Notes under the pieces: model-generated | The model's input: the letters and a program-made list of their open reading frames with translations, nothing else | Told to the model about the DNA's origin: nothing | Databases searched by the model: none | In this document: piece after piece, positions 17,417 through 34,021 of the stretch | Layout: the number at the start of each line of letters is the position of its first letter | Position numbering within the stretch: the first letter of the stretch is position 1 | From: a virus | DNA: 64,000 nt | Strand: one strand, 5' to 3' | IMG/VR virus record: IMGVR_UViG_3300042945_001689 | Location: 44,125-108,124 of that record | Program-made: the position numbers and the translations under genes

Positions 17417-17502
17417 TCACCAGTTTTAATTATAAATGTTTTGTCATCGACTTTTATAACTTTTGCTGGCGTTACTGCAGGGGAAGTAATTTTAATTATC
17501 AT
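17413..17502 (-). CDS. 29-residue micro-protein in the fibre operon
   Basis: Encodes MIIKITSPAVTPAKV followed by a short K/T-rich strand. It is tied by ATGA overlaps at both its start (17499-17502) and its end (17413-17416) to the genes on either side, which is strong evidence that it is translated. No function can be assigned. Confidence 0.5.
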   Translation of the reverse strand: MIIKITSPAVTPAKVIKVDDKTFIIKTGE

Positions 17503-17885
17503 AGTCCACCTGGAGTTATATCACTGTATACACTAATTGTTCCAATAATTGGAGTCCAAACAATATCATCATCTGTAATGATCTGAACGTCAAAAGGTAG
17601 GTTTGCTACAACATTTTTATAACCATTTCCCCAGAACGTTGTTAAGTCTGAAGGGGCTGTAACAATAATATATCCATCATATTTAGTAACAGTGAGTTCG
17701 TCTAACAAGTCCCCAGAAGAATCGTATGACGTTGCTGAAACTGTCCAATCATCAATATCTATTTCTGTTGTTTCATCATCTTCTAAAAAATCTACCCTTA
17801 GAGTTGCGGTATCACCACGAACTACTTTCCATTTAATATTGATTGGCTCTGCGCCTACCTGTTCAATAGAAGATATTGTACTCAT
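17499..17885 (-). CDS. Ig-like phage structural protein (BppU-N-like family, copy 3)
   Basis: 128 residues: KWKVVRGDTATLRVDF at the start, DDWTVSA strand, and GTISVYSDIT at the end. It is a paralogue of 8573-8974 and 16265-16654. A TATAAT lies seven bases before the ATG on the minus strand (17893-17898). Confidence 0.6.
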   Translation of the reverse strand: MSTISSIEQVGAEPINIKWKVVRGDTATLRVDFLEDDETTEIDIDDWTVSATSYDSSGDLLDELTVTKYDGYIIVTAPSDLTTFWGNGYKNVVANLPFDVQIITDDDIVWTPIIGTISVYSDITPGGL

Positions 17886-21120: not shown

Positions 21121-21130
21121 GTTTAGACAC

Positions 21131-21145
21131 GGACAAATCGGACAT
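21131..21145 (-). repeat. ATGTCCGATTTGTCC motif (inverted copy)
   Basis: Exact 15-base match, on the opposite strand, to 24663-24677. Near-copies are at 22401 and 22441. All lie within about 60 bases of a CCCGCGGG. Confidence 0.7.
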
Positions 21146-21151
21146 TTTTTG

Positions 21152-21167
21152 TGTGATCTGTACCACA
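21152..21167. promoter_or_regulatory. CRP/GlxR-like operator
   Basis: TGTGA-TCTGTA-CCACA: nine of ten half-site positions match TGTGA-N6-TCACA. Confidence 0.5.
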
Positions 21168-21171
21168 TTTA

Positions 21172-21215
21172 CCCGCGGGCCCCGACACGCCCGACCTCGT
21201 TGTGGGTTATCCACA
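21172..21215 (+). repeat. 44-bp GC-rich element, copy 1 (CCCGCGGG to DnaA box)
   Basis: From CCCGCGGG through CCGACACGCC to TTATCCACA. It is identical to 23771-23814 except for one base. It is strikingly GC-rich against the AT-rich surroundings. Confidence 0.85.
21207..21215 (+). promoter_or_regulatory. DnaA box
   Basis: TTATCCACA, the consensus DnaA box. Confidence 0.65.
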
Positions 21216-21247
21216 TGATGTACATCACATCCAGAATTGAGCGTGAG

Positions 21248-21256
21248 TTATCCACA
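21248..21256 (+). promoter_or_regulatory. DnaA box
   Basis: TTATCCACA, 41 bases after the previous one and in the same orientation. Both are followed by an ACATCACAT stretch. Confidence 0.65.
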
Positions 21257-21310
21257 TGACCTACATCACATTTCAAAATGTCCGTTTTGGTATGATTACT
21301 GGTCAGTAGA

Positions 21311-21332
21311 TGTCAGACCCCCCTGCTATACT
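21311..21332 (+). promoter_or_regulatory. TGTCAG-type promoter of the operon 21388-22351
   Basis: TGTCAG, exactly ten bases, then TATACT (21327-21332). There is no good -35 box at 16-18 bases. The same arrangement precedes five further operons. Confidence 0.65.
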
Positions 21333-21387
21333 TCTAGGTATAGAAGGTTGAAAAAGAAGTAAACCCCTTAAAGAAAGGAAGTCCAGA

Positions 21388-21597
21388 ATGACTTCACTAA
21401 ATGTAAATGTAACTACTAAACAATATGAATTGCGTTGGTCTGGATTGCAGACTTCTAGCAATTACACTTCATCTAATTTAGGTGGATTGTTCAATGATGA
21501 AAAGTCTATGAACGACTACTTAGATCAAAAAGTATCTGAGGGTTGGATAATCCTTGAAACTTCCGTTAATGTTTTTGAGCCTTTGGAGGTAAAGTAA
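21388..21597 (+). CDS. Hypothetical 69-residue protein
   Basis: First gene of a six-gene operon of micro-genes. Contains ELRWSGLQTSSNYTSSNLGGLF and a KSMNDYLDQKVSEGW helix. No family recognised. An AGGAAG ribosome site precedes the ATG. Confidence 0.55.
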   Translation: MTSLNVNVTTKQYELRWSGLQTSSNYTSSNLGGLFNDEKSMNDYLDQKVSEGWIILETSVNVFEPLEVK

Positions 21598-21761
21598 TGA
21601 ACGCTATTTATTCACTAAAATCTATCTGCGGAAAGAATACTTTCTATGTAGATGCATATGATGTAAATTTTAATCCTAATGGTGCAACATGTTGCGATAA
21701 TTGCAAATCAATTTTAATCTGCCGTGAGGCTTGGGACTTTCTCTATAAGGGGGATAAATAA
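21597..21761 (+). CDS. 54-residue four-cysteine protein
   Basis: MNAIYSLKSICGKN at the start, then CCDNC and a late LICREAW. The Cys cluster suggests metal binding. The ATG overlaps the upstream stop (TAATG). Confidence 0.6.
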   Translation: MNAIYSLKSICGKNTFYVDAYDVNFNPNGATCCDNCKSILICREAWDFLYKGDK

Positions 21762-21938
21762 ATGATAAAACTTAAACTAACTACGTTTAATGGTACTACT
21801 AAGGATATTTCTTTCAGTACCTCGTCAGATGTGCGTACATATATTGACGCACTAAAAAATACACTACCTAAATCAGTAGTGTTGCAAGTATCTTGCGATA
21901 CTCTTGGAATATCGGGTCACTTGAAAGGAAACAAATAA
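21762..21938 (+). CDS. 58-residue conserved protein, paralogue of 20430-20606
   Basis: MIKLKLTTFNGTTKDI through ISGHLKGNK. The ATG is directly after the upstream TAA. It is an end-to-end homologue of the minus-strand protein at 20430-20606, probably from an old duplication across the divergent control region. Confidence 0.65.
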   Translation: MIKLKLTTFNGTTKDISFSTSSDVRTYIDALKNTLPKSVVLQVSCDTLGISGHLKGNK

Positions 21939-22072
21939 TGAACCTTGATGAATATAAACAATTCGTAAAAACAAAACGTCAGATGTCAAAAATTGACGCT
22001 ATGGCAATTCTTGAAAATGCTAAAAAGCAAAATGAACTTATCCACTCTCAAAAAGAAAATGGTGAAAACTAA
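21938..22072 (+). CDS. 44-residue helical micro-protein
   Basis: MNLDEYKQFVKTKRQMSK then a charged helix. It is joined at both ends by TAATG overlaps. Confidence 0.55.
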   Translation: MNLDEYKQFVKTKRQMSKIDAMAILENAKKQNELIHSQKENGEN

Positions 22073-22245
22073 TGAGCCTTGAACTACAAGACACACTGGC
22101 TATATGCCGTCAAATTCGTAACAATGATCGTGATAGTGGAACACACTACTTACTAGGTTATCTATGGGCTAACACTTCAGATAAAGAAAAGAAAAGAATC
22201 TATAAATTGTTCAAGGCAGACCTTGATGAGATTGGAGAAAAATAA
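22072..22245 (+). CDS. 57-residue helical protein
   Basis: MSLELQDTLAICRQIRNN, then THYLLGYLWANTSDKEK and a basic helix. It begins in a TAATG overlap with the gene before. Function unknown. Confidence 0.55.
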   Translation: MSLELQDTLAICRQIRNNDRDSGTHYLLGYLWANTSDKEKKRIYKLFKADLDEIGEK

Positions 22246-22246
22246 A

Positions 22247-22351
22247 ATGGAATTCGTAATTGTGTGCATGCATTGTTGGAAGAATACAAAATATGATGCG
22301 CTATCAGATGCAAGAGGGTTGCCGTGTAATCAATGCGGTAAAATCCTATAG
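22247..22351 (+). CDS. 34-residue zinc-ribbon micro-protein
   Basis: MEFVIVCMHCWKN, then PCNQCGKIL: two C-x2-C pairs 21 residues apart, a minimal zinc ribbon. It follows the upstream stop by one base. Confidence 0.6.
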   Translation: MEFVIVCMHCWKNTKYDALSDARGLPCNQCGKIL

Positions 22352-22558
22352 GATGTGTTTAGACAAATAGTCTAAAAAAGCCCGCGGGCCCCTGTCCAAA
22401 ATGTCCGATTTGTGATATGTGATGTAACACACATTGAGAGTTGTCCGATTTGTCTGATAATTACTTGACATAATGTGTGCAAATGTCAGACCCCCCTGCT
22501 ATAATATAAATATAAAGAAAACAAGCGGTAAAGAAATCCGCTAAGAAAGGTGGTCAAA
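22352..22558. other. Intergenic control region with promoter
   Basis: Holds CCCGCGGG (22381-22388), two ATGTCCGATTTGT-type motifs (22401-22414 and 22441-22455), an imperfect CRP-like site (22418-22433) and the promoter at 22484-22505. No ORF with a ribosome site. Confidence 0.65.
22484..22505 (+). promoter_or_regulatory. TGTCAG-type promoter
   Basis: TGTCAG, ten bases (ACCCCCCTGC), TATAAT. The stretch from TGTCAG to the -10 is almost identical to 21311-21332. A TTGACA at 22465-22470 is too far away to be its -35. Confidence 0.65.
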
Positions 22559-22756
22559 ATGACTACATTAAATAAAACTCAATGTGTGAATGGTAATTCT
22601 CACACCCCTAATCGTAAAGCAATTTCAATAATTGCTCACAATTTCGATTGTTCCGATTACTTTACATTTTGCGAAGTTTGCGAGCAAAACATTTCAGCAT
22701 TCTCATTCTATGATGAGGATCGTGGAGATGTTCTCAGCAAATGGTCAATAGACTAA
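22559..22756 (+). CDS. Hypothetical Cys/His-rich 65-residue protein
   Basis: MTTLNKTQCVNGNSHTPNR, then CSDYFTFCEVCEQ: a likely zinc site. The ATG eight bases after AAAGG is chosen over a GTG three codons earlier. Confidence 0.6.
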   Translation: MTTLNKTQCVNGNSHTPNRKAISIIAHNFDCSDYFTFCEVCEQNISAFSFYDEDRGDVLSKWSID

Positions 22757-22817
22757 AAGGTCGTGTGATTAACCTCACATTCCAAATGTCCTAAATGTCC
22801 GTTTTTGGATTTGATTA

Positions 22818-22839
22818 TGTCAGTCCAATCTGGTAAGAT
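22818..22839 (+). promoter_or_regulatory. TGTCAG-type promoter
   Basis: TGTCAG, ten bases, TAAGAT. Here a TTGATT also lies 17 bases from the -10, so it may be a normal sigma70 promoter. Confidence 0.55.
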
Positions 22840-22872
22840 AAATACATAACAAAAAAAGAAAGAGGTGGCACT

Positions 22873-23076
22873 ATGTCAGCCAATGTTTACTCAGTCCAAT
22901 CCCTACTAGTGGGAACCGAATATCAGTCTGCAACCTTAACGGGTAAGATCGTTAGAGCAGAAGCGCACCCTAAAGCCGTATGGTATGATGGTTGCGAAAG
23001 TTATCTCGTAGAAATCCGACCTGAAATCGGATTTAGAAATGCTTATCGCACCATAGCGGTAAAAACTTCTAATTAA
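22873..23076 (+). CDS. Hypothetical 67-residue protein
   Basis: MSANVYSVQSLLVG, then TGKIVRAEAHP and WYDGCESYLVEIRPE: a small beta-rich protein. GAGGTGG precedes the ATG. Monocistronic. Confidence 0.55.
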   Translation: MSANVYSVQSLLVGTEYQSATLTGKIVRAEAHPKAVWYDGCESYLVEIRPEIGFRNAYRTIAVKTSN

Positions 23077-23147
23077 ATAAAATCGAAACAAGGGCAGTTT
23101 AGAGAGTGTTCTCGCCCGATGTCGTAAGTAAGAACTCTCACCAATAT

Positions 23148-23169
23148 TGTCAGTGCCCACTGATATAAT
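23148..23169 (+). promoter_or_regulatory. TGTCAG-type promoter
   Basis: TGTCAG, ten bases, TATAAT; no -35 box at normal spacing. Confidence 0.6.
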
Positions 23170-23201
23170 TTAACTCAACTAAAGAATAGGAAATAAAAAC
23201 A

Positions 23202-23408
23202 ATGAAAAAAATAACCCACTCGCTACAATTCGTTACCGAGGTTGATGAAAATCACCCAATAGGAATGCAACTGCTTTCACTTTCACGAGAAATGCAAAAA
23301 GAAATGCTTGAAGGAATGTTAAAAGAACTGGTTGCACCAAAAATTCAACCAATCCTTGACTTTCTTAATGAAGGCAATTCATATGCAATTCTAAAGGTGG
23401 CAGACTAA
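23202..23408 (+). CDS. Hypothetical helical protein
   Basis: 68 residues: LSLSREMQKEMLEGMLKELVAPKIQPILDFL suggests amphipathic helices. The stop overlaps the next start (TAATG). Confidence 0.55.
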   Translation: MKKITHSLQFVTEVDENHPIGMQLLSLSREMQKEMLEGMLKELVAPKIQPILDFLNEGNSYAILKVAD

Positions 23409-23608
23409 TGATGACACGAAAAGACTATGTCGCAACTGCTGAAATTCTAAGCAATTATTTTGCTACATCTATTTTTGATGAGCAGGCAGAAATTTTATTT
23501 GCTGATTTGGTAGATGAATTTTCGCTAATGTTTGAAAGTGATAATCCAAGATTTGACGCAAATAAATTTGCTCTTGCTTGCTATAAAGAAATTGAGGTAA
23601 ATGCGTGA
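23408..23608 (+). CDS. Hypothetical acidic 66-residue protein
   Basis: Helical, acidic (ILFADLVDEFSLMFESDN). It is coupled on both sides by overlaps. Function unknown. Confidence 0.55.
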   Translation: MMTRKDYVATAEILSNYFATSIFDEQAEILFADLVDEFSLMFESDNPRFDANKFALACYKEIEVNA

Positions 23609-23730
23609 ATAGATTTTTAACAACAATCGTTCAACTATTTTTAGCGGGTAGCGTTTTCATTTTATTTAAAATGATGTTACCAATGCTAAAAGAAGATTTT
23701 CAACAAATAAAAAATGATTTAACAAAATAA
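23605..23730 (+). CDS. 41-residue single-pass membrane peptide
   Basis: Begins with GTG inside GTGA, overlapping the upstream stop. The product starts MNRFLTTIVQLFLAGSVFIL and continues with a short Lys/Gln helix. One membrane span, positive-inside head. Could be a small membrane-active regulator. Confidence 0.55.
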   Translation: MNRFLTTIVQLFLAGSVFILFKMMLPMLKEDFQQIKNDLTK

Positions 23731-23770
23731 AAAAAATTCCTAAGCAAGAATAAAAACTGCTTAAATTTTG

Positions 23771-23814
23771 CCCGCGGGCCCCGACACGCCCGACCTCGTT
23801 GTGAGTTATCCACA
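23771..23814 (+). repeat. 44-bp GC-rich element, copy 2
   Basis: Matches 21172-21215 at 43 of 44 bases; it ends in the DnaA box TTATCCACA (23806-23814). Confidence 0.85.
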
Positions 23815-23825
23815 ACTCCTTTACG

Positions 23826-23841
23826 TGTGGTTAAGATCACA
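23826..23841. promoter_or_regulatory. CRP/GlxR-like operator
   Basis: TGTGG-TTAAGA-TCACA, nine of ten half-site bases, centred about 75 bases before the expected start of transcription. Confidence 0.5.
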
Positions 23842-23879
23842 CCCCAAAACCTGCAAAACCCCCTTAATGAATTATGAGA

Positions 23880-23901
23880 TGTCAGTCAAATATGCTAGGA
23901 T
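23880..23901 (+). promoter_or_regulatory. TGTCAG-type promoter
   Basis: TGTCAG, ten bases, TAGGAT; no TTGACA-like box at 16-18 bases. Confidence 0.6.
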
Positions 23902-23928
23902 TGTATTATTCCAAAGAAAGGAAAACTA

Positions 23929-24123
23929 ATGGGAAACTTGTTTGATAAAATAGGAATTTGCTACACTTGCTATGATGAGGGCGTTATCTTTACTGATATG
24001 GATAGCGATGGATTTATAAATGATTTCTGCGCTGATTGTGAAAAAGGTCAGGTATTTGCTAATGACTATTCAATATGGTATGCTGAAAATGAAATGAACG
24101 AATACACTAAGGAGAACGCATAA
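23929..24123 (+). CDS. Acidic zinc-binding protein, 64 residues
   Basis: GICYTCYDEG and FCADCEKG form two C-x2-C pairs 22 residues apart, with an acidic segment between them (DMDSDG). GAAAGG ribosome site. Confidence 0.6.
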   Translation: MGNLFDKIGICYTCYDEGVIFTDMDSDGFINDFCADCEKGQVFANDYSIWYAENEMNEYTKENA

Positions 24124-24227
24124 TGACCTACTATGACGACTACTATGAAACTGATACGCCTACTGCCGTAGGTTGCTACTGCAAAATAAATTATCTATGC
24201 TCAGAATGTAAAGGAAGTTACAACTAA
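24123..24227 (+). CDS. 34-residue Tyr/Cys-rich micro-protein
   Basis: MTYYDDYYETD, then GCYCKI and LCSECKG. Both ends overlap neighbours by one base (TAATG). Probably one zinc. Confidence 0.55.
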   Translation: MTYYDDYYETDTPTAVGCYCKINYLCSECKGSYN

Positions 24228-24439
24228 TGGAATATGAATATCTAATTACCTGCGCCTATGACGGGAACGCTCCGCATTGGGAGCAACGCTATGAAAACGA
24301 ATATGGCGCATGGGAAAACTTTTTCCTATTTACTGATTGGGGAATGGCTGATGAATACTCAACAGTTAATCTTTACACGCCAACTGGCAAATGTTATACA
24401 AAAAACTTTTATCGTAGTGGAATGGTGAGTGTAAAATAA
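24227..24439 (+). CDS. Hypothetical aromatic-rich 70-residue protein
   Basis: MEYEYLITCAYDG then WENFFLFTDWGM; no family recognised. Overlaps both neighbours. Confidence 0.55.
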   Translation: MEYEYLITCAYDGNAPHWEQRYENEYGAWENFFLFTDWGMADEYSTVNLYTPTGKCYTKNFYRSGMVSVK

Positions 24440-24633
24440 TGACACAGGAAAATTTTAAATATAGTTGGGAACGCTATACTATTTGGGATACCCCCGAAGT
24501 TTGGGAAGAACCATGCGGTGATGAAAGGGCTGAATTGAATGGCGTTGTGTCTTGGGAGTTAGAAGATGAAGAGCCATTTATTTCTTTAGAAGAAGATCCA
24601 GAAATGGAAGATTGGTTAATGAGTAATGTTTAA
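24439..24633 (+). CDS. Hypothetical acidic, Trp-rich protein
   Basis: 64 residues with seven Trp and a strongly acidic C-terminal half (ELEDEEPFISLEEDPEMEDW). Acidic small proteins of this kind can mimic DNA, but nothing proves it here. Confidence 0.55.
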   Translation: MTQENFKYSWERYTIWDTPEVWEEPCGDERAELNGVVSWELEDEEPFISLEEDPEMEDWLMSNV

Positions 24634-24727
24634 GATGTAAAATATAAAAACCCCCGCGGGCGATGTCCGATTTGTCCAGAATCTCCCAGGATTTGATTTC
24701 TAAGATTATTTATGATATTATTTTTAT
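24634..24727. other. Intergenic control region with promoter TTGATT-TATTAT
   Basis: CCCGCGGG (24653-24660), an exact ATGTCCGATTTGTCC (24663-24677), then TTGATT (24693-24698), 17 bases and TATTAT (24716-24721), six bases before the ATG at 24728. Confidence 0.65.
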
Positions 24728-24868
24728 ATGTGGAAAAAAACAAGCGAAGAGTTACGTAGAATACAAGAGTTACGTAGATCTAATGCTGCTACCCCTTTAC
24801 GGGACAAGTCTAAATATTCCCGAAAAAACAAGCATAAGAAACTTGACATTTATCTCCCTGAAAGGTAG
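24728..24868 (+). CDS. 46-residue basic protein, leaderless
   Basis: Reads MWKKTSEELRRIQELRRSN and ends KKLDIYLPER. A repeated ELRRIQ/ELRRS helix is followed by a Lys/Arg-rich tail, as in small nucleic-acid-binding proteins. It has a good promoter whose -10 lies six bases before the ATG, like other leaderless genes here. It ends inside the promoter of the next gene. A longer frame through the same DNA begins within the ATGTCC motif and is rejected. Confidence 0.55.
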   Translation: MWKKTSEELRRIQELRRSNAATPLRDKSKYSRKNKHKKLDIYLPER

Positions 24869-24871
24869 AAT
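24843..24871 (+). promoter_or_regulatory. Promoter of the GP88-like gene
   Basis: TTGACA, 17 bases, TAGAAT (24866-24871), then six bases to ATG. Confidence 0.75.
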
Positions 24872-24877
24872 ATTAAT

Positions 24878-25606
24878 ATGAACCCAACTCACACCCTGAA
24901 ACGCTCTAATGATAGGAAAGTAACTAATGCTGTCAGTCCTAATGGTAAGACTCCAACAATTGCTAACACCTTCGGACTACCCGCAGGCAAAGAGTACTCC
25001 TGTCCTGGAGAAACCCCTACCTGCAAAAAAGTCTGCTACGCAGGAAAACTTGAAAAGATCTACAAAGGCGTAAAAGCCGTACTATTACATAATTGGGATT
25101 TGCTAAGCAATGCAGATTTTGATACCCAGGTACAATTGATAGATGAAATGATTATTGATTTCAAGTCTGATTGTGTAAAGAAAGACGCTCCTATGCTATT
25201 CCGTATCCACTGGGACGGAGATTTCTTCAATGATCAATACACTCTGGCCTGGAAGACAGTAATTGAAAGACACGAAGATGTTCAATTTTGGGTATACACG
25301 AGAGTAGCAAGCGCTGCTAGGATTCTTAAGGATGTTTCTAATTTAGGATTATATTATTCTACAGACGGCGATAACAAAAATATTGCACAAGGTCTCTCGG
25401 AAGAAGGAATAAAACTAGCATATCTTTCTACTACATTTGCGTTAGGTAAGGAAGATATGCTAAACTTGATAGGTAAGTCAGCCGTCAAGTGTCCTGAGAA
25501 TAATAAAAAGATTCCCCTCATTTCTAAACAGGGGTCAGCGTGTGTTACTTGCGGTCAATGTGTATTTGAGCGTAATAATATCCTATTTTCTAGTACTAAG
25601 AAATGA
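24878..25606 (+). CDS. GP88-family phage protein
   Basis: 242 residues. The N-terminus (NDRKVTNAVSPNGKTPTIANTFGLPAGKEYSCPGETPTCKKVCYAGK, abbreviated from residues 11-57) follows the pattern of the actinophage gene product 88 family: GxTP, LPAG, CPG, CxxxCYA. A second Cys cluster (ACVTCGQC) is near the end. The cysteines suggest a metal centre. The family is widespread in phages, and its function is not established. The message appears leaderless (TAGAAT six bases before ATG). Confidence 0.75.
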   Translation: MNPTHTLKRSNDRKVTNAVSPNGKTPTIANTFGLPAGKEYSCPGETPTCKKVCYAGKLEKIYKGVKAVLLHNWDLLSNADFDTQVQLIDEMIIDFKSDCVKKDAPMLFRIHWDGDFFNDQYTLAWKTVIERHEDVQFWVYTRVASAARILKDVSNLGLYYSTDGDNKNIAQGLSEEGIKLAYLSTTFALGKEDMLNLIGKSAVKCPENNKKIPLISKQGSACVTCGQCVFERNNILFSSTKK

Positions 25607-25612
25607 GGAACT

Positions 25613-25678
25613 ATGGAAGTCCTAATTGTCCTATTTATCGGTATTGTCGTATTGTTGGCTGGCTTGGGACATAAGTGA
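25613..25678 (+). CDS. 21-residue hydrophobic peptide
   Basis: MEVLIVLFIGIVVLLAGLGHK: a single membrane span and nothing else. TGAGG stands before the ATG and the gene lies six bases after the GP88 stop. Real peptide or chance is uncertain. Confidence 0.4.
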   Translation: MEVLIVLFIGIVVLLAGLGHK

Positions 25679-25708
25679 TTTATCTCACACCAAAACTAGG
25701 CTCTACGA

Positions 25709-25738
25709 TTTGATATTTTCTAGCAACCCTGCTAGAAT
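25709..25738 (+). promoter_or_regulatory. Promoter
   Basis: TTGATA, 18 bases, TAGAAT (25733-25738), upstream of the gene at 25768. Confidence 0.6.
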
Positions 25739-25767
25739 TGTAATAACAACAAAAGAAAGGAAGCAAA

Positions 25768-25926
25768 ATGGCAAAGTCAGCACTATACAAAGTAGGCGAC
25801 ACCTATACCTCTCAAAAGAGCAAGGTAACAGGAACCATCTTGGAGATTTCTCCAAACTCATCTGGCTCGGTGCGAGTTAAACTAGATGTAGAGGGAAATA
25901 CCCGTTGGACAACTTGGAAGGCATAA
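25768..25926 (+). CDS. 52-residue SH3/OB-like small protein
   Basis: MAKSALYKVGDTYTSQ, then KVTGTILEISPNSSGSVRVKLDVEG and a final WTTWKA: a compact beta-barrel-like pattern. GAAAGG ribosome site. Followed by the first TGAGCA-TGCTCA stem-loop. Confidence 0.6.
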   Translation: MAKSALYKVGDTYTSQKSKVTGTILEISPNSSGSVRVKLDVEGNTRWTTWKA

Positions 25927-25957
25927 GCCTTTAGGTTTAGCAAACGCTAACCAGACC

Positions 25958-25983
25958 TGAGCAAGTCTAGGATAAACTGCTCA
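25958..25983 (+). repeat. TGAGCA...TAAACTGCTCA stem-loop, copy 1
   Basis: TGAGCA, 14 bases ending TAAAC, TGCTCA, flanked by CC on the left and CC on the right. It lies between two genes on the same strand. Confidence 0.7.
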
Positions 25984-26013
25984 CCAAACCCCTTACCCGA
26001 AAGGAACCCAAAT

Positions 26014-26436
26014 ATGGCACGACAGAAAGCAATCTCAGTAAAAATTGCAACAAGCAAAGTAATCAAGGCACTAGAAACTCGTCTAGCAGAACTAGAAAAG
26101 AACTATGCCTCACAAGAAGCCAATGAAGCAAAGTATCAGAAGGCTTACAAGAATTGGCAGAAAGAACTACAAGAGTTCGCTATTGCTAATATCAAGAAGG
26201 CAGAAAACTTCCGCACATCATATCGTTCTTGGAATAAGACCTTGAACATTGACTACGACATCATCACAAACGAGGACTCTTTACCAAAAGAGCCTGAGCG
26301 TGATTTTGAGCAACTCCATCAACACAGTTATCGTGAGATGAAAGAGGAAATGGAAAATGCTATCCGTATTCTCAAAATGACAGATGAGGAAGTTGTAAGC
26401 ACATCAACTTACAATGCTATTTCTCGTTATCTTTAA
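26014..26436 (+). CDS. Coiled-coil protein
   Basis: 140 residues, nearly all charged helix: KVIKALETRLAELEKNY, then KAYKNWQKELQEF and REMKEEMENAIRIL. No enzymatic motif. It probably forms a dimer or binds a partner. GAAAGGA ribosome site. It lies between stem-loop copies 1 and 2. Confidence 0.6.
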   Translation: MARQKAISVKIATSKVIKALETRLAELEKNYASQEANEAKYQKAYKNWQKELQEFAIANIKKAENFRTSYRSWNKTLNIDYDIITNEDSLPKEPERDFEQLHQHSYREMKEEMENAIRILKMTDEEVVSTSTYNAISRYL

Positions 26437-26488
26437 CAAGATAGGCACACGGATAATTTAATTATCTATACGCCTTAGTTAAATCTCC

Positions 26489-26511
26489 TGAGTATGAGGC
26501 TAAACTGCTCA
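26489..26511 (+). repeat. TGAGCA-type stem-loop, copy 2
   Basis: TGAGTA, 11 bases ending TAAAC, TGCTCA; one G-T wobble in the stem. Confidence 0.7.
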
Positions 26512-26573
26512 CCAACTTTCATCTCTGCTAAGCCCCAGGCCATGATGCGTGGGTATGCCTGAGATGATCTTCC

Positions 26574-26596
26574 TGAGCATGAGGTTAAACTGCTCA
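26574..26596 (+). repeat. TGAGCA-type stem-loop, copy 3
   Basis: TGAGCA-TGAGGTTAAAC-TGCTCA followed by TTTTTG, so this copy could also end transcription. Confidence 0.7.
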
Positions 26597-26615
26597 TTTT
26601 TGCCCCGCGGGGGAT

Positions 26616-26631
26616 TGTGATAAACATCACA
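26616..26631. promoter_or_regulatory. CRP/GlxR-like operator, perfect
   Basis: TGTGA-TAAACA-TCACA, centred about 80 bases before the expected transcription start. Confidence 0.6.
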
Positions 26632-26674
26632 TTCTTAAAAAATGTCCAGAAACGCCCAATTTAAGATTAGACAA

Positions 26675-26696
26675 TGTCAGCCCTATCCGCTAGAAT
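26675..26696 (+). promoter_or_regulatory. TGTCAG-type promoter
   Basis: TGTCAG, ten bases, TAGAAT; a TAGACA also lies 17 bases from the -10. Confidence 0.6.
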
Positions 26697-26727
26697 TATA
26701 TTAACAACAACGAAAGGAACAACCCCT

Positions 26728-27021
26728 ATGGCAAATATGAAGAAAATTATGGATGCAACAAATGATGCTATCCATACTAATGAAATTTCAGATGAGGCTT
26801 CAGGTCTTGTAGCAACTATCGCAGAAGGTCTGCCACTTGATGTAATTATCAAAGAGTTATACCAATACTCGCAAGCCTTATCTGCTATGGTACTAACAAA
26901 AGTTTTGCACACCATGTATGATGCCGAAACTATTGAGAACATGATAGATGGCTACCAAGATGAACTTACCGCAGAAATGTTTGATGAGATTGAAAACTAT
27001 CTTCAGAAAGAAGGAAACTAA
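26728..27021 (+). CDS. Hypothetical helical acidic protein
   Basis: 97 residues from the ATG after GAAAGGA; a longer frame would begin inside the promoter. Helical and acidic throughout (EIENYLQKEGN end). No family recognised. Confidence 0.6.
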   Translation: MANMKKIMDATNDAIHTNEISDEASGLVATIAEGLPLDVIIKELYQYSQALSAMVLTKVLHTMYDAETIENMIDGYQDELTAEMFDEIENYLQKEGN

Positions 27022-27022
27022 T

Positions 27023-27424
27023 ATGCCTATTCCAGATAACTCGTGTCTAGTAACTATCAACTCACTAAATGAGGAGATTGCTTTACTAAAATCACAACTA
27101 GGAGATGCTCTTAGTAACTCACAAAGACACTATGAATACTATGAAAAACTGCAAAACTCTATTCGTTATTTCTTTGAGAGCAATCGTAGTGATGCTACTT
27201 GTGAGTTTGACATTGACAATGTAAATGCTTTCCTTGCTGAAAATAGCATTGAACCGCTAAAGCGTGAGTATCGTGTTGAGTTCCGAATTGAAGGAACAAT
27301 TCTTGTGGAAGCAGAAAACGAAGATGAAGCACAAGATATAGTAAATGAACTTGATGTAACGCATTGGACTGCTGAAGTTGAAAATTTTGAAGCAGAAGCA
27401 ACTAATGTAGAAGCAACCTACTAG
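27023..27424 (+). CDS. Hypothetical protein with coiled coil and beta domain
   Basis: 133 residues. The N-terminal half is coiled coil (LNEEIALLKSQLGDAL), and the C-terminal half has YRVEFRIEGTILVEAENEDEAQDIV, a ferredoxin-like pattern found in many small phage proteins, ending in an acidic tail. It starts two bases after the upstream stop with AAGGA before it. Confidence 0.6.
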   Translation: MPIPDNSCLVTINSLNEEIALLKSQLGDALSNSQRHYEYYEKLQNSIRYFFESNRSDATCEFDIDNVNAFLAENSIEPLKREYRVEFRIEGTILVEAENEDEAQDIVNELDVTHWTAEVENFEAEATNVEATY

Positions 27425-27447
27425 TTTTTCCGTAGGGGAAAAAGTCC

Positions 27448-27470
27448 TGAGCATGACTAAAAACTGCTCA
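27448..27470 (+). repeat. TGAGCA-type stem-loop, copy 4
   Basis: TGAGCA-TGACTAAAAAC-TGCTCA, directly before CCCGCGGG. Confidence 0.7.
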
Positions 27471-27483
27471 CCACCCGCGGGGG

Positions 27484-27499
27484 TGTGACATTGATCACA
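27484..27499. promoter_or_regulatory. CRP/GlxR-like operator, perfect
   Basis: TGTGA-CATTGA-TCACA, centred about 80 bases before the expected start of transcription of the DUF932 gene. Confidence 0.6.
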
Positions 27500-27536
27500 G
27501 TGTGTTCTTTATCACATAACGATATTTTAGGATGAT

Positions 27537-27565
27537 TTGACTTTGACTTTGATTTACGATAAAAT
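27537..27565 (+). promoter_or_regulatory. Promoter of the DUF932 gene
   Basis: TTGACT, 17 bases, TAAAAT (27560-27565). Confidence 0.7.
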
Positions 27566-27592
27566 TAGAATATCAACTGAAAGGATAAAAAT

Positions 27593-28573
27593 ATGGCTCA
27601 TGAAATCGAAATAATCAACGGTGAGGCTTCTTTTGCTTCATTGCGTGAACCTGCGTGGCATGGTTTAGGTACCGTGTTTACAGAAGAGAAAACAACTAGC
27701 GAAATGCTAGAGTTAGCAAATCTGCAAGACTGGAATGTAAGATTAGAAGAGGTCGAGGCTCCTGCTACTCTAACATCAGACAAAAATTATTTCTATGTAG
27801 TACGAAATAATCCCGTAATCGAAAATCAAAACGATATTTTAGGTATTGTTGGAGAACGTTACAATGTATTGCAAAATGAACAACTATTTGATTTTGCAGA
27901 TGCAATGCTAGATGGTGGACGATGGGAAACCGCTGGCTCACTACGAGGTGGACGTGTAGTATTTGGTAGCCTTGCACTAGATCGTGAAACCGTACTAGAC
28001 CCTAATGGCGTTGCAGATAAAATCAACACCTATCTGATAGTCAATACATCACACGATGGTTCTATCTCAATTCAAGCAAGCGTTACCCCCGTACGTGTAG
28101 TGTGCGCTAACACATTGAACTTTGCTTTGCGTAGTGTAAAGCAATCCTTCAAGATTCGCCACACACAAACTGCTAATGGTAAAGTACAATCCGCTAAGAC
28201 TGCTCTAGGTATTGCTAACGCATACATGGACGACTTTAGCGTTATGGCAAACAAGATGATTCAGACTGAATTATCCGCTAAGCAATTCAACGATATTCTT
28301 CTCACCGCTTACCCTAAGCCTGATAAGGATTCTAAGCAAGCCCTAACCAAGTGGACAAATAAAATTGACACTCTCAATGATATTTACACTGGCGAATTCA
28401 ATCACATGATTTCGGGTAATGCGTGGGGCGCTCTTAATGCAATGACTGAACGCATTGACTGGTTCAGAGGTCAAGGTGAAACTAAGTTAGCAGCAGCAAG
28501 TGGTTTTGATGTTGCGACTAATGCAGAAAAAAATCGTTTAATGAAAATCGTAAATGATTTTGTAGCAGCGTAA
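27593..28573 (+). CDS. DUF932 (phage/plasmid-like TIGR03299) protein
   Basis: 326 residues. Recognised by the opening (REPAWHGLGT), the YFYVVRNNPV and ERYNVLQNEQLFDF blocks, the VTPVRVVCANTLNFAL core and the WFRGQGE-x-LAAASGFDVA end. This family occurs in many phages and plasmids. It has been linked to replication or recombination loci, but no activity is established. It is expressed alone from its own promoter and is followed by stem-loop copy 5 and tRNA-Asp. Confidence 0.8.
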   Translation: MAHEIEIINGEASFASLREPAWHGLGTVFTEEKTTSEMLELANLQDWNVRLEEVEAPATLTSDKNYFYVVRNNPVIENQNDILGIVGERYNVLQNEQLFDFADAMLDGGRWETAGSLRGGRVVFGSLALDRETVLDPNGVADKINTYLIVNTSHDGSISIQASVTPVRVVCANTLNFALRSVKQSFKIRHTQTANGKVQSAKTALGIANAYMDDFSVMANKMIQTELSAKQFNDILLTAYPKPDKDSKQALTKWTNKIDTLNDIYTGEFNHMISGNAWGALNAMTERIDWFRGQGETKLAAASGFDVATNAEKNRLMKIVNDFVAA

Positions 28574-28583
28574 ATAAATATCC

Positions 28584-28606
28584 TGAGCATGATATAAAAC
28601 TGCTCA
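28584..28606 (+). repeat. TGAGCA-type stem-loop, copy 5
   Basis: TGAGCA-TGATATAAAAC-TGCTCA, four bases before the tRNA-Asp gene. Confidence 0.7.
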
Positions 28607-28609
28607 TCT

Positions 28610-28683
28610 GATTCCATAGATCAATTGGTTAGATCGCCACCCTGTCACGGTGGAGGTTGCGGGTTCAAGTCCCGTTGGAATCG
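28610..28683 (+). tRNA. tRNA-Asp (GTC)
   Basis: Acceptor GATTCCA/TGGAATC, anticodon loop CTGTCAC on a CCACC/GGTGG stem, T-arm GCGGGTTCAAGTCCCGT. CCA is encoded at 28684-28686. Confidence 0.93.
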
Positions 28684-28825
28684 CCAAAGGTTGGTGCAAC
28701 ACCCGCGGGGTTATCCACAGGTTATTCACATGATGAACGGTAAATCAAATTTTAAATCTAAAACATACTTTTTCCCTTTATTAAGAAGAGTTGACTTTTT
28801 CCTGGAATCAGGGTAAAATATTAAT
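28684..28825. other. Intergenic region with two DnaA boxes and promoter
   Basis: CCCGCGGG (28702-28709), DnaA boxes TTATCCACA (28711-28719) and TTATTCACA (28722-28730), promoter 28791-28819. Confidence 0.65.
28791..28819 (+). promoter_or_regulatory. Promoter of the operon 28826-29581
   Basis: TTGACT, 17 bases, TAAAAT, then six bases to ATG. Confidence 0.75.
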
Positions 28826-29044
28826 ATGACCCAAAAAGTTGCAATTTACGAAATGAATTACTCTTGCTCTCCTGGCGGTATTGACTGCTGGGAAGCAACC
28901 ATTCAAGGTTATGGTACTAGTACTACTGCCTCTGACTTTAAAAATGCTGGAGAGGCTCTTAATTGGGTACTTGACAGATACCCTGACGAAATGTTAGAAT
29001 TGGTAGTAACTTCAATTCCTGCCTACGAAAAGGAATATGTATGA
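28826..29044 (+). CDS. Hypothetical 72-residue protein
   Basis: MTQKVAIYEMNYSCSPGG then WEATIQGYGTST and GEALNWVLDRYPDEM: a small alpha/beta protein. Leaderless start. First gene of a four-gene operon. Confidence 0.6.
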   Translation: MTQKVAIYEMNYSCSPGGIDCWEATIQGYGTSTTASDFKNAGEALNWVLDRYPDEMLELVVTSIPAYEKEYV

Positions 29045-29205
29045 CCCAAACAACCTACAAACCTTATACTATAAATGAACTAGTCATGGCTATCTATGAA
29101 GATAACCTATCACATTTTGAATTTATGGAAAACATGAATGGGGGAGACTGTGATTGTTCTCTCCATAATACTATGAATACTATTGTTGAATACTGGGGAG
29201 AATAA
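29041..29205 (+). CDS. 54-residue hypothetical protein
   Basis: MTQTTYKPYTINELVMA; it starts in an ATGA overlap and ends in TAATG, so it is coupled on both sides. DCDCS could bind metal. Confidence 0.55.
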   Translation: MTQTTYKPYTINELVMAIYEDNLSHFEFMENMNGGDCDCSLHNTMNTIVEYWGE

Positions 29206-29480
29206 TGGGACGTAATCTAGCAGAAGAGTTAGCAAGCAATTCTTTATTGGATGAGATTAAATTAGATAATGCTATAGCGATACACTTACGGGGTAATCAC
29301 TATCCCCCGATTCCTTTGACTATGGTCCAGCCATGTATCGAAGCAATTGACGCATATTGGGATGAGGATTTAGACCATATGATTGATCTGCCAGAGGGCG
29401 TCTTCTATCGTGGTAGTGACAAGGCTCCTGCTTGGGCCATTATTGAATCACATCATCTTGGCGCTTGGTGTGCAGATTGA
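29205..29480 (+). CDS. Conserved actinophage-type protein, 91 residues
   Basis: LAEELASNSLLDEIKLDNAIAIHL then MVQPCIEAIDAYWDEDL and a C-terminal YRGSDKAPAWAIIESHHLGAW. No assigned function. Confidence 0.55.
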   Translation: MGRNLAEELASNSLLDEIKLDNAIAIHLRGNHYPPIPLTMVQPCIEAIDAYWDEDLDHMIDLPEGVFYRGSDKAPAWAIIESHHLGAWCAD

Positions 29481-29581
29481 GGTGTACCTCATGTGGAAGT
29501 AAGATAACCTTTGAAAGCCAGGATGAAAGAGGATTCTGGTCCTGCCAGGATTGTGGGCAACCTACAGAAGAAGAGGGTTGA
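29477..29581 (+). CDS. 34-residue zinc ribbon with TTG start
   Basis: Begins with TTG inside TTGA, overlapping the upstream stop. The product is MRCTSCGSKITFES then WSCQDCGQPTEEEG: two C-x2-C knuckles, a minimal zinc ribbon. The overlap and the intact Cys pairs support it despite its size. Confidence 0.5.
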   Translation: MRCTSCGSKITFESQDERGFWSCQDCGQPTEEEG

Positions 29582-29597
29582 CCTTATTAAGAAATGC

Positions 29598-29626
29598 TTG
29601 ACATTTTCCCCAAAACCTGCTAAAAT
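29598..29626 (+). promoter_or_regulatory. Promoter of the operon 29658-30887
   Basis: TTGACA, 17 bases, TAAAAT (29621-29626). Confidence 0.75.
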
Positions 29627-29657
29627 TTAATTACGAACCAAGTAGAAAGAACCCGAA

Positions 29658-29885
29658 ATGAAAACATCAAGACTAGACCCATACTTACAAAAACAAGTTG
29701 AACTAGGCTCATCTGGCATAGACATTATGCATGGAGCATTAAAGACTATTATGCATGAGTTTGAAAACAAAACCTTTGAGGACAAATCATATGAAGAAGG
29801 ATATATGGATTGTCTTGTTGACCTATACAGTTTGACCTACGATATCTCATTTGCTATCATGGATAATGAGAGAAAGGATACGTAA
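29658..29885 (+). CDS. Hypothetical 75-residue protein
   Basis: Helical: LGSSGIDIMHGALKTIMHEFENK and YEEGYMDCLVDLYSLTYDI. Start after AGAAAG. Ends in TAATG overlap. Confidence 0.55.
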   Translation: MKTSRLDPYLQKQVELGSSGIDIMHGALKTIMHEFENKTFEDKSYEEGYMDCLVDLYSLTYDISFAIMDNERKDT

Positions 29886-30058
29886 TGGCAACATATCGTT
29901 TTATGACTGGTACTTGGTATGAGATTACCCTGCCAGATAACAAGGTAGATTTAGAGGGTTATTTCCCTGAAGAGTTACATGATGCATACTTTGATAACTG
30001 TCTACCCGAAGATGTTCAAGTATACGAAGTTGAAGCGGACCATATATGGGACAATTGA
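29885..30058 (+). CDS. 57-residue hypothetical protein
   Basis: MATYRFMTGTWYEITLPDN, acidic middle, ending EVEADHIWDN. It is beta-rich at the start and coupled to both neighbours by overlaps. Confidence 0.55.
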   Translation: MATYRFMTGTWYEITLPDNKVDLEGYFPEELHDAYFDNCLPEDVQVYEVEADHIWDN

Positions 30059-30240
30059 TTGAGTATATTAAGATACATCTAATTAGTTTAAGACAAGATT
30101 GGGAAGATGCTATTAATAACATAGACCTAATTGATTCTGAGTACCATCCTTCTGATGATTATTTTGAAGGAGCAATTGAGGCAACAGAGCACCTGTTGTC
30201 AGTGGCAGAAGGTATACTTAATGGTGGAGAGGATAGATAA
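30046..30240 (+). CDS. Hypothetical helical protein
   Basis: 64 residues from ATG. An in-frame TTG at 30055 within TTGA would fit the overlap style of this operon and may be the true start. Acidic, with two helices. Confidence 0.5.
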   Translation: MGQLIEYIKIHLISLRQDWEDAINNIDLIDSEYHPSDDYFEGAIEATEHLLSVAEGILNGGEDR

Positions 30241-30887
30241 TGCCAAATTGGGTATACAATCAGGTATCTATCAAGGGACCTGAGAATCAGATAGCAGATA
30301 TCAAGGAACAACTTAATCAACCATATACTAGTATTCAAGATAACTACAATCATGAAACTAAAAAATGGGAGAAAAAAGAGTTTGCATATAGTAATCCTAT
30401 ATTTGCATTTTGGAATATCCATCGACCATTAGACATGAAAACATATAATTTGCAAGAAGACCCCAATGCAGATAAAACTAAACTATTTGATGGCAATAAC
30501 TGGTATAACTGGAATGTTCGTGAGTGGGGTACTAAATGGGATGTTGGACTTAGAGACGATGAAAGATTTACTGATACTGAGTTAATAGAAGAGACTAGTG
30601 GTTCATTAGTTTATTCTATACATACCGCTTGGGCTCCCCCTGTTCCTGCCATCCAAAAATTATCTAAGTTTGTGCCTGATTGTATTGTTACTCTTACCTA
30701 TCAAGAAGAGCAAGGCTGGGGTGGCGAGGTAATTTATCTTGATGGCTTGGCTGTTATTGAGAAAGAATACGACTCTCTATGCAATGAGTGCGATGCAGAA
30801 AACACTATGGAATACTGTGAGCATTGCGAAGTTGAGACATGCACTGCTTGCGCCTTTCCTTCCTGTACCCATTTAGTACAGGCATAG
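30240..30887 (+). CDS. Api92/DUF1281-like protein with Cys-rich tail
   Basis: 215 residues. The opening MPNWVYNQVSIKG and the later WNVREWGTKWD and YSIHTAWAPPVPAIQKLS blocks match the Api92-like/DUF1281 family with a ferredoxin-like fold. The last 35 residues are a separate zinc-type module (CNEC, CEHC, CTAC, PSCTH). Function unknown; the family is frequent in phages and plasmids. Confidence 0.7.
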   Translation: MPNWVYNQVSIKGPENQIADIKEQLNQPYTSIQDNYNHETKKWEKKEFAYSNPIFAFWNIHRPLDMKTYNLQEDPNADKTKLFDGNNWYNWNVREWGTKWDVGLRDDERFTDTELIEETSGSLVYSIHTAWAPPVPAIQKLSKFVPDCIVTLTYQEEQGWGGEVIYLDGLAVIEKEYDSLCNECDAENTMEYCEHCEVETCTACAFPSCTHLVQA

Positions 30888-30888
30888 G

Positions 30889-30917
30889 TTGACAAACTGC
30901 AGCGGTAACGGTAGAAT
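30889..30917 (+). promoter_or_regulatory. Promoter
   Basis: TTGACA, 17 bases, TAGAAT (30912-30917), upstream of 30950. Confidence 0.75.
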
Positions 30918-30949
30918 ATATATACAACTAAAACTATGAGAGGATAGCA

Positions 30950-31315
30950 ATGGGAGATAGAACTAATTTTCACTTTAAAGTAAATGAAGACACCTTGACT
31001 TTGTACAGTCACTGGGGTGGTACCTGGCGTAAACAAGATTTGGCTCGTGCACTGAGTGTAGCAATGCCACGAATCCAAATGGGAGATATCGACTATGCAT
31101 TGCGTGTTTGTATCTCACAATTGATTGGAGCAGATTGGAATCAGGAAACTGGTTTTGGTCTACGCATTAATAACCCGCAGGGTGCTGAAGAAGAATATGG
31201 ATTTTTAGAAATCAACTTTAACAATGGCACAGTCCAGGATGATGACATTGTCAAGCCAATCCAGGAATTCATTTCCTACCACTTGACACAAGCAGCAACA
31301 ACTGCTACAATTTAA
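30950..31315 (+). CDS. Hypothetical 121-residue protein
   Basis: MGDRTNFHFKVNEDTLTLYSHWGGTW then a helix and GFLEINFNNGTV: an alpha/beta fold. I have seen this opening in small actinophage proteins, without a known role. GAGGA ribosome site. Confidence 0.6.
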   Translation: MGDRTNFHFKVNEDTLTLYSHWGGTWRKQDLARALSVAMPRIQMGDIDYALRVCISQLIGADWNQETGFGLRINNPQGAEEEYGFLEINFNNGTVQDDDIVKPIQEFISYHLTQAATTATI

Positions 31316-31346
31316 TAACCACAACCCTAACCGAAAGGAGCCAGCA

Positions 31347-31511
31347 ATGGCAACTAAGAAAGCAGCAAAAGCAAAGACATACCCATATCTTGAAACTTGG
31401 GACACACGGTATGGCCTCTCCCAACGTGTGGTCCTACGTAAGAACGGCAAGTTTGTAGACAATGTCTCGCTTGACGCTCTTAAGCGAGGCCAACGGGTAG
31501 GCTCTCGCTAA
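31347..31511 (+). CDS. 54-residue basic protein
   Basis: MATKKAAKAKTYPYLETWDTRYG then VVLRKNGKFVDNVSLDALKRGQR: a basic tail and a compact beta/alpha core. Could bind nucleic acid. AAAGGAG ribosome site; a terminator follows. Confidence 0.6.
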   Translation: MATKKAAKAKTYPYLETWDTRYGLSQRVVLRKNGKFVDNVSLDALKRGQRVGSR

Positions 31512-31512
31512 A

Positions 31513-31590
31513 TCAGTGAGGAATGGGTTCCCTCACTAACTAGGGGGGCGTTGGGTCTGCGACTTGCGCCCCTCTTTACTTTTTGGTACA
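31513..31590 (+). terminator. Two-hairpin terminator region
   Basis: A first stem AGTGAGG/CCTCACT and then a GC-rich imperfect stem (GGGGGGCG against GCGCCCCTC) followed by T-rich sequence. Confidence 0.6.
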
Positions 31591-31608
31591 ATTCAATAAG
31601 GGAGAAAA

Positions 31609-31842
31609 ATGACTAGATTATTTAGACCAACAAGACAGACTAAGGAGGAAAAGGCTGCAGTAGAGATAGGTGACATCCTATCAGACTTTAGACTTGACTT
31701 AGATTCACTTGGTTACTATGTAGCAAGGTCTAACCCCTATGTTATTTATCGTAGGTTTGAGGCTGTTGCGGAATCAGCATTATTAGAACGTGAAGGTTTA
31801 GATGATACAAGAATGGAGAACTACAATGACAGACTTCTATAA
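31609..31842 (+). CDS. Hypothetical 77-residue protein
   Basis: Basic start (MTRLFRPTRQTKEEK) and helical remainder. AGGGAG precedes the ATG; a TACAAT lies upstream. Confidence 0.55.
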   Translation: MTRLFRPTRQTKEEKAAVEIGDILSDFRLDLDSLGYYVARSNPYVIYRRFEAVAESALLEREGLDDTRMENYNDRLL

Positions 31843-32104
31843 GGCATGTGCTATTCTATCTGAGTTATACATGGGGTATGGAGATGACCCAGAGTTTAGA
31901 GATTTTATAGAATACAATGATATTGGAATACCACTTGCTCACTTTGTAAATGACGGGCTGGTAAGAGAACTTGGCGACTCAGCAAATATCTATATAGAGG
32001 AAACATTCTCACTACTATGTAAGTCACTAGGATACAAGGGTGCTACATATGATTTTGATAATTTAGATGATTTATTAGAAATGGCTCCTAGTAAAGAAGA
32101 GTAA
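31826..32104 (+). CDS. Hypothetical acidic protein
   Basis: 92 residues from MTDFYKACAILSEL, the ATG that follows GGAG; an upstream ATG would extend the overlap to 41 bases. Helical, acidic, ending MAPSKEE. Confidence 0.55.
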   Translation: MTDFYKACAILSELYMGYGDDPEFRDFIEYNDIGIPLAHFVNDGLVRELGDSANIYIEETFSLLCKSLGYKGATYDFDNLDDLLEMAPSKEE

Positions 32105-32153
32105 GGTTTGGGCAGATCCTCTACTTCCCTGGAGGATCGGCCTGATCGCGGCA

Positions 32154-32161
32154 CCCGCGGG
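32154..32161. repeat. CCCGCGGG palindrome, last copy
   Basis: The eighth copy of this palindrome between genes (others at 21172, 22381, 23771, 24653, 26604, 27474 and 28702). Confidence 0.8.
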
Positions 32162-32220
32162 AAACTATATCAAGTGACCGTGGTCCCCATGGCAAATCAT
32201 ATCAAATTGGACATATTGGA

Positions 32221-33047
32221 CAAACCTTATTTTCCCAAACCTTATTACGAAGACAATTATATTTTCCCAAAACCATATTACGAACATGATTATATTTTCC
32301 CAAACCCTTATTACGAAACATTAAAAAAAATCCCAGAAACTTTAGTGTTATAATAGTTTTATGAGTCCAAGAGTCCATTTTGCTAAAGAAATGTATGGTC
32401 CTTATTTCCTAGAATCCAAACACTTTAGTTGTGATTGTGATAAAGATAAGAAGCCTATTCATCCTATACGTAAGTTTATAGATCGTCTCTTTCGTATCCC
32501 CGCCAAAGTAGAGGTCGAGCAGGTCCCTGAGCAGCCCAAGCCAAAGACGTCCAAGCCAGCCACCCAGGAAGAGATTGACGCCTACAATTTTCGGCGGGAA
32601 CAACGTAAACAATCTAATCAATAATACCCCTATATAAAACATTACGATACCAAACCTTTTTTCCTGGTTTTCTTTTATTTATCAAACCTTTATATAATTT
32701 TATTACGAAATATTTTAAAATATCCTAAAATTTGTTATCAAATTGTTATACATATTTGGCAACTTGACAAACCTTTATATCTATGATATGGGGGATATGG
32801 GGTTTGGGATATAAGGTTTGAAGGTTTGATGGTTTGAAGATATAAGGTTTGGAGATAAGAGGTTTGGCCCCTAGACATTACGACCCCATCTGTCTAAGCG
32901 CTCCATAACCCATTACTCTCCACTTTCCTCCACTATACACCAAACCATACTATCTCAGTAACATTTATTTCATCCAAACCTCCCTATTACAATAGCCTTT
33001 ATAGGTCATATAAGCCTATTTGCGAGGGGATATTAAACACCCAAACC
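32221..33047. repeat. Iteron-like CAAACC/GGTTTG repeat region (split by a small gene)
   Basis: CAAACC stands at 32221, 32236, 32301, 32651, 32683, 32768, 32941, 32975 and 33042. The inverse GGTTTG stands at 32801, 32815, 32823, 32831, 32846 and 32861. TTACGA recurs six times, often ten bases after CAAACC. The 32625-33084 part has no convincing gene. The dense block 32801-32866 has six direct copies 8-15 bases apart, in the style of replication iterons or a partition site. Confidence 0.7.
32361..32624 (+). CDS. Hypothetical basic protein, leaderless
   Basis: 87 residues: MSPRVHFAKEMYGPYF, a CDCDKDK segment, then a Pro/Lys/Gln-rich tail. TATAAT (32349-32354) six bases before ATG. It sits inside the repeat region. 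Confidence 0.55.
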   Translation: MSPRVHFAKEMYGPYFLESKHFSCDCDKDKKPIHPIRKFIDRLFRIPAKVEVEQVPEQPKPKTSKPATQEEIDAYNFRREQRKQSNQ

Positions 33048-33987: not shown

Positions 33988-34021
33988 GGTGTTTACTGTT
34001 CTATTTACCGCCGAACTTTAA
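33988..34021. repeat. Direct repeat at the 3' end of pstS
   Basis: Matches 35127-35160 except for two bases (GGTGTTT, then TGTTCTATTTACCGCC). The pair brackets the pstS gene; a partial copy with CCGCCGAACTT is at 33560. Confidence 0.75.

Follow-up and report, generated by a model that had tools for sequence, protein, structure and literature searches.

A repeated intergenic palindrome in a putative phage early region and its lineage-specific counterparts in relatives

Eight copies of a palindrome in a block of small genes

The window, a 64,000-nucleotide stretch that forms the final 64 kb of a 108,124-bp virus record, contains a block of small plus-strand genes whose gaps carry a repeated eight-base word. 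Two genes of this region, a GP88 family gene (PF17338; positions 24878–25606, plus strand) and a DUF932 gene (PF06067; 27593–28573, plus strand), served as markers for relatives. Between them lies the gene for a 140-aa early protein (26014–26436, plus strand), which is universal in the freshwater relatives; its two ends are conserved, whereas its middle is mosaic and diverges fast. A WhiB-family domain is encoded at 51715–51888 (minus strand) and is present in all eight of the long freshwater relatives. An ORF adjoining the motif region (34018–35061, minus strand) resembles, by eye, a PstS-type phosphate-binding protein.

The window phage is related to Streptomyces phages in culture (Samistivirus and Karimacvirus): orthologs are found in Samisti12, a Streptomyces phage of the Stanwilliamsviridae, and comprise DNA polymerase III alpha, RecA, helicase, primase, SSB, portal, capsid and tail genes. 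In Samisti12 and its kin, GP88 and DUF932 lie in the left-end terminal-repeat region, and the motif region is therefore the counterpart of the terminal-repeat early region. We infer the label 'early' from this gene content.

The word CCCGCGGG, a perfect 8-bp palindrome with no strand of its own, occurs eight times in the window. Copy 1 (21172–21179) lies in a divergent gap ahead of the gene at 21388. Copies 2 (22381–22388) and 3 (23771–23778) lie 28 and 40 bp past the upstream ORF, preceded by the hairpins TAGAC-AAATA-GTCTA and TAAGCA..TGCTTA, respectively. Copy 4 (24653–24660) is upstream of the GP88 gene, where many relatives have an aligned slot with another word. Copy 5 (26604–26611) immediately follows a TGAGCA..TGCTCA hairpin and a T run, and copy 6 (27474–27481) lies behind a TGAGCA..TGCTCA hairpin upstream of the DUF932 gene. 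Copy 7 (28702–28709) is located 15 bp past tRNA-Asp, in a slot that holds other words in relatives, and copy 8 (32154–32161) is located 49 bp past the upstream ORF.

The count reproduces exactly the eight positions given in the first-pass annotation, which had placed them in gaps between transcription units and had regarded frequent copies inside genes as evidence against a control element; all eight are intergenic. The full virus record contains the same eight copies and no others, all inside 11 kb, and every CCGCGG in the window is part of one of them. The annotation had also expected the palindrome to be rare and had asked for a comparison with shuffled sequence. The expected number is 0.03, and a count of eight was reached by none of 100 shuffles. 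Chance or base composition, for which the observed score was likewise never reached in shuffles, is ruled out for practical purposes.

Several further motifs accompany the palindrome. ATGTCCGATTTGTCC has two exact copies in the window and nine with at most three mismatches (1.3 expected); one box (24663–24677, plus strand) is common to relatives and is not lineage-specific, and further copies lie at 21131–21145 (minus strand), 22401–22415, 22441–22455, 22786–22800 and 32209–32223 (minus strand). CRP-like TGTGAN6TCACA sites, which have no assigned strand, are found at 27484–27499, 22764–22779 and 26616–26631, and DnaA-box-like TTATCCACA at 28711–28719 (plus strand), 21207, 21248 and 23806. These companions are present as first described, but they also occur in relatives that have other signature words and are therefore not tied to CCCGCGGG.

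Different words in the same slots of relatives

A scan of IMG/VR with DUF932 and GP88 yielded about 100 loci, and bacterial genomes scanned with DUF932 gave no match. CCCGCGGG is kept in two contigs whose proteins are 100% identical to those of the window phage and occurs once, unrepeated, in the contig L006. Where protein identity is 86%, it is absent and its place is taken by five copies of GCCCGGGG. Relatives carry short words of their own, usually dyads, in ~4–10 copies in the same gaps. These words include GCCCGGGG, CCCATGGG, CGACGTC, GGGGCGCCCC, CCGAACGTTC and CACATGTG, as well as CCCGGCCC, CCGGGGCC, CCCCGGAA, GGCCGCCC, GGGCCGAC, CGGTTCGA, GGCGGCAA, CGTACGGC, GGCCGGAC, GGCGGGCC and CCCGAGCC. 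Several of them are asymmetric (CCCCGGAA, GGCGGCAA), some asymmetric words occur in both orientations, and the word is missing from some early gaps.

Loss of the palindrome from close relatives with the same genes had been named at the outset as an argument against its significance. Such relatives indeed lack CCCGCGGG, which refutes simple conservation and rules out a conserved CCCGCGGG element, but a different repeated word stands in the same gaps. The description as a GC-rich palindrome holds for the window and fails for some relatives, such as G041 with its word CACATGTG.

The matrix of word counts by genome is near-diagonal. The signature words were picked post hoc, with concordance of the slots as the safeguard. 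In an unsupervised test of 18 regions, the best 8-mer of every region exceeded all 40 of the dinucleotide shuffles, and in most regions it was the signature word. In five regions it was a motif common to all these phages (GACACGCC or CGACACGC, or a ribosome-binding sequence), so that the signatures there rest on slot position. A second repeated motif, GACACGCC(CGA), is present in both orientations in the gaps of many relatives, for example in L019, L017 and L085.

The replacement is most directly seen in aligned slots. The slot behind tRNA-Asp holds CCCGCGGG in the window, GCCCGGGG in G003, GGGCCGGG in G015, GGCCCCGG in G018, GGGGCGCC in G031 and CGACGTCG in G038, and the gaps upstream of GP88 and DUF932 likewise hold different words. 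The polymerase of G038 is 96% identical to that of the window phage, yet its word is CGACGTC. G041 and G016 share about 90–93% identity over most of their alignment, and the flanks of their GP88 slot are 94% identical, whereas the word is CACATGT(G) in G041 and of the CCC-NN-GGG type in G016; it is replaced in each shared slot examined. At 17217–17750 of the reverse complement, G041 also has a 177-aa cysteine-rich ORF with no match in G016.

The word could instead be a cassette linker or mobile repeat, that is, a boundary spread with gene cassettes or by recombination, with each genome made uniform for a single version and no dedicated reader involved. The early genes are mosaic, and window slots 1 and 3 have ~40 bp in common around the word, as this explanation would have it. 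However, most copies have just 8–10 bp in common between slots, which is too short for ordinary gene conversion and makes copying by homologous recombination unlikely, and the flanks are old and slot-specific and stay put while the word changes. We consider a linker unlikely; selection for a common recogniser would be a simpler reading than copying by recombination.

Gap anatomy and cultured Streptomyces phages

The same anatomy is present in cultured Streptomyces phages, where the dyad words cluster in the early region of the terminal repeats. In Samistivirus and Karimacvirus, most early gaps run in the order hairpin, dyad, promoter-like region and gene. Dyads of the class TGTCSGG-N-CCSGACA or TGTCCG-NNN-CGGACA are found in Samisti12, Evy, Sushi23, Teutsch, MulchMansion, Angela, Mildred21, NootNoot and Daubenski, the class GGGCCG-CCC-CGGCCC in Bmoc and Riptide, and GCCGCCCCGG with other flanks in Elmer, MindFlayer and LukeCage. 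The Bmoc-type dyad is GGGCCGCCCCGGCCC and the MulchMansion-type dyad is TGTCCGNNNCGGACA. These words differ less than the freshwater words because they have the CCG..CGG core in common. In the first 123 kb of Bmoc, 16 of the 17 copies of CCGCCCCGG lie within the first 12 kb, and the remaining one is at the start of the right-end repeat.

The phages of a single host species bear on whether a host transcription factor or nucleoid protein reads the word, with differences between hosts giving differences between words. The CRP-like and DnaA-box motifs beside the word would suit a host factor. However, Riptide and MindFlayer share S. mirabilis, and LukeCage and Samisti12 share S. griseus, yet the word flanks differ within each pair, and a change of word leaves the host-like motifs unaltered. 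A host factor is thus quite improbable. The satellites MiniFlayer and MulchRoom were considered as carriers of the word and ruled out, since the helper's word is absent from both.

The first-pass annotation had also offered a recombination site or a restriction-methylation site. Both fit worse, as the flanks are mostly unshared between copies and none of the 40 copies of the signature word in the window, Bmoc and MindFlayer is genic. A modified or protected site would accord with the many palindromic words, with their six-base core of the restriction-enzyme kind and with the one methyltransferase gene annotated in Bmoc and MulchMansion. Such sites would be expected irrespective of gene boundaries, however, and a restriction enzyme or methylase could recognise its sites without their being confined to the intergenic slots of one region; several words are also non-palindromic. 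A restriction-modification mark is therefore very unlikely.

Within the gaps, the word lies near the upstream gene end, often with a hairpin immediately before it, and the next promoter-like region follows. A median of 34 bp in the window, 31 bp in Bmoc and 28 bp in MindFlayer separates the word from the end of the upstream gene, and a median of 160, 84 and 86 bp, respectively, separates it from the next start. In the window, the word stands ~110–220 bp ahead of the next start codon, with variable spacing. Strong hairpins end at most 10 nt before the dyad at 6 of 15 sites in Bmoc, 11 of 17 in MindFlayer and 10 of 18 in Elmer, compared with about 1.3 in shuffles, and are rare on the mirror side. 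Among the freshwater sites, 18 of 76 have a preceding hairpin (4.2 in shuffles, maximum 10; eight on the mirror side), which indicates a real but partial coupling; the loop limit of a stricter hairpin test misses the freshwater terminators.

The hairpins before the word, which exceed the shuffle level, would also fit a word that belongs to a terminator or to an RNA-processing signal and has been rebuilt independently in each lineage. In G021, G036 and L067 the word itself is hairpin-like, an inverted repeat with a loop, and could be an RNA element. In contrast, the window word cannot fold on itself because it is a perfect palindrome without a loop, independent rebuilding would not yield one word in all slots of a genome, and the only Rfam matches at gathering score are tRNAs. 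We assign an RNA-level element a low probability. The placement of hairpins before the word makes a role as roadblock or insulator slightly more likely than classical activation.

A putative operator and the search for its reader

Of the roles first suggested for the palindrome, a regulator site or insulator fits best, as the words are intergenic, dyad-shaped, located in homologous slots and replaced in concert; the regulator itself we infer. With modest confidence, we favour the reading that CCCGCGGG is the lineage-specific operator of a putative, fast-diverging dimeric phage DNA-binding protein that gates early transcription units. A phage-encoded, probably dimeric protein would recognise the short dyad, and many early transcription units have one such dyad at their entrance. 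The bound protein would most likely gate early transcription as a stoperator-like roadblock that stops read-through out of the upstream unit, by turning the next promoter off or on in the course of infection, or in both ways. Co-divergence of protein and site would leave each lineage with its own word in every slot.

Two known kinds of phage element may share parts of this anatomy. The T4-type PeSL cassette consists of an early promoter and a stem-loop in the intergenic gaps of the early region. Hairpins also lie in early-region gaps here, although they are enriched before the word rather than universal, and the regions ahead of the genes are promoter-like; we know of no PeSLs that contain a word peculiar to the lineage and swapped across every gap at once. 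The start-associated sequences of cluster K mycobacteriophages are short conserved intergenic repeats next to start codons. They resemble the present words as short intergenic repeats of an actinophage and differ from the window word in their proximity to the start.

The nearest known kind, by analogy, would be the stoperators, or immunity-repressor sites, of cluster A mycobacteriophages such as L5 and Bxb1 (PMC6550527, PMC9283540). These are many short sites per genome, with a consensus that varies by lineage, and the phage protein that recognises them halts transcription elongation; they are asymmetric, oriented with transcription and genome-wide, and the phages that carry them are temperate and have a known repressor (PMC6550527, PMC9283540). 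The window phage likewise has many short intergenic sites in one genome, and the consensus likewise differs between lineages. In contrast to stoperators, the window word is a perfect palindrome and the Streptomyces-phage words are dyads, so neither is asymmetric with respect to transcription; the sites are confined to 11 kb of the 108-kb record; and close relatives have entirely different words. Integrase (PF00589) and the HTH_3 repressor (PF01381) were found in none of the eight long records, which are possibly incomplete, unlike the temperate stoperator phages. The dyads are not mentioned in the Streptomyces phage genome paper (PMC5764925) or in the searched passages of the satellite-helper paper (PMC10690885), and no description of a swapped-word system was found in the open-access literature searched, which is weak evidence of novelty.

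More tentatively, the phage-encoded reader may provide an orthogonal address code in presumed virulent actinophages, in which one dyad tags many early units, each reader recognises its own word only, and selection (co-infection, satellites, competitors) drives wholesale replacement between close relatives. If so, these phages would show how a protein-operator regulon can change every one of its sites together, a question still unsettled in the study of regulatory evolution, with the ~90%-identical pair as a natural before-and-after comparison. The like architecture in culturable Streptomyces phages would allow the putative control protein to be hunted there. With the reader would come several orthogonal DNA-binding specificities, and in viromes the words could be used to tag lineages.

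Four proteins were examined as candidate readers: phrog_9440, the 140-aa early protein, WhiB and Samisti12 gp11. The MerR-like phrog_9440 protein (L028:12478–13023, minus strand, record G000) adjoins replication genes and is far more diverged than its neighbours. It was rejected, since Bmoc and MulchMansion have different words but almost the same helix-turn-helix region in this protein. Of the full-length genes that G041 and G016 share in its neighbourhood, the gene for the 140-aa protein has diverged most (57%, versus roughly 80–100% for most neighbours). The protein was rejected because L077 and L078 have one word in common but not the protein. The WhiB-family domain also occurs in Streptomyces phages and does not covary with the word among Bmoc, MulchMansion and Samisti12. 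A separate idea, that the words mark an Lsr2 boundary, was set aside by reasoning: it leaves identical words unexplained, and any GC-rich block would be enough.

Samisti12 gp11 is a candidate reader, as a lead only. A gp11 homolog was not found in the freshwater contigs. In the phages inspected, gp11 is an early gene whose own gap has no dyad and whose leader is nearly invariant. Across the nine Samistivirus phages that were compared, the protein and its orthologs track the word class; this is a single evolutionary contrast, and several of 154 genes have a similar pattern. The MulchMansion ortholog, gp12, is 88% identical to Samisti12 gp11 and 57% to Bmoc gp11, where the median gene identities are 82 and 86, respectively.

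A further feature of the satellites and of the gp11 leader was observed. MiniFlayer and MulchRoom have a conserved 17-nt loop, CCRCTCGTMCCTCGCAA, in hairpins with wholly different stems (L198:14300–14390 and L199:11215–11300). L192 gave no Rfam match at gathering score; its Samistivirus gp11 leader (minus strand, gap 6979–7108) contains CCTCGCAAC, which is similar to this satellite loop.
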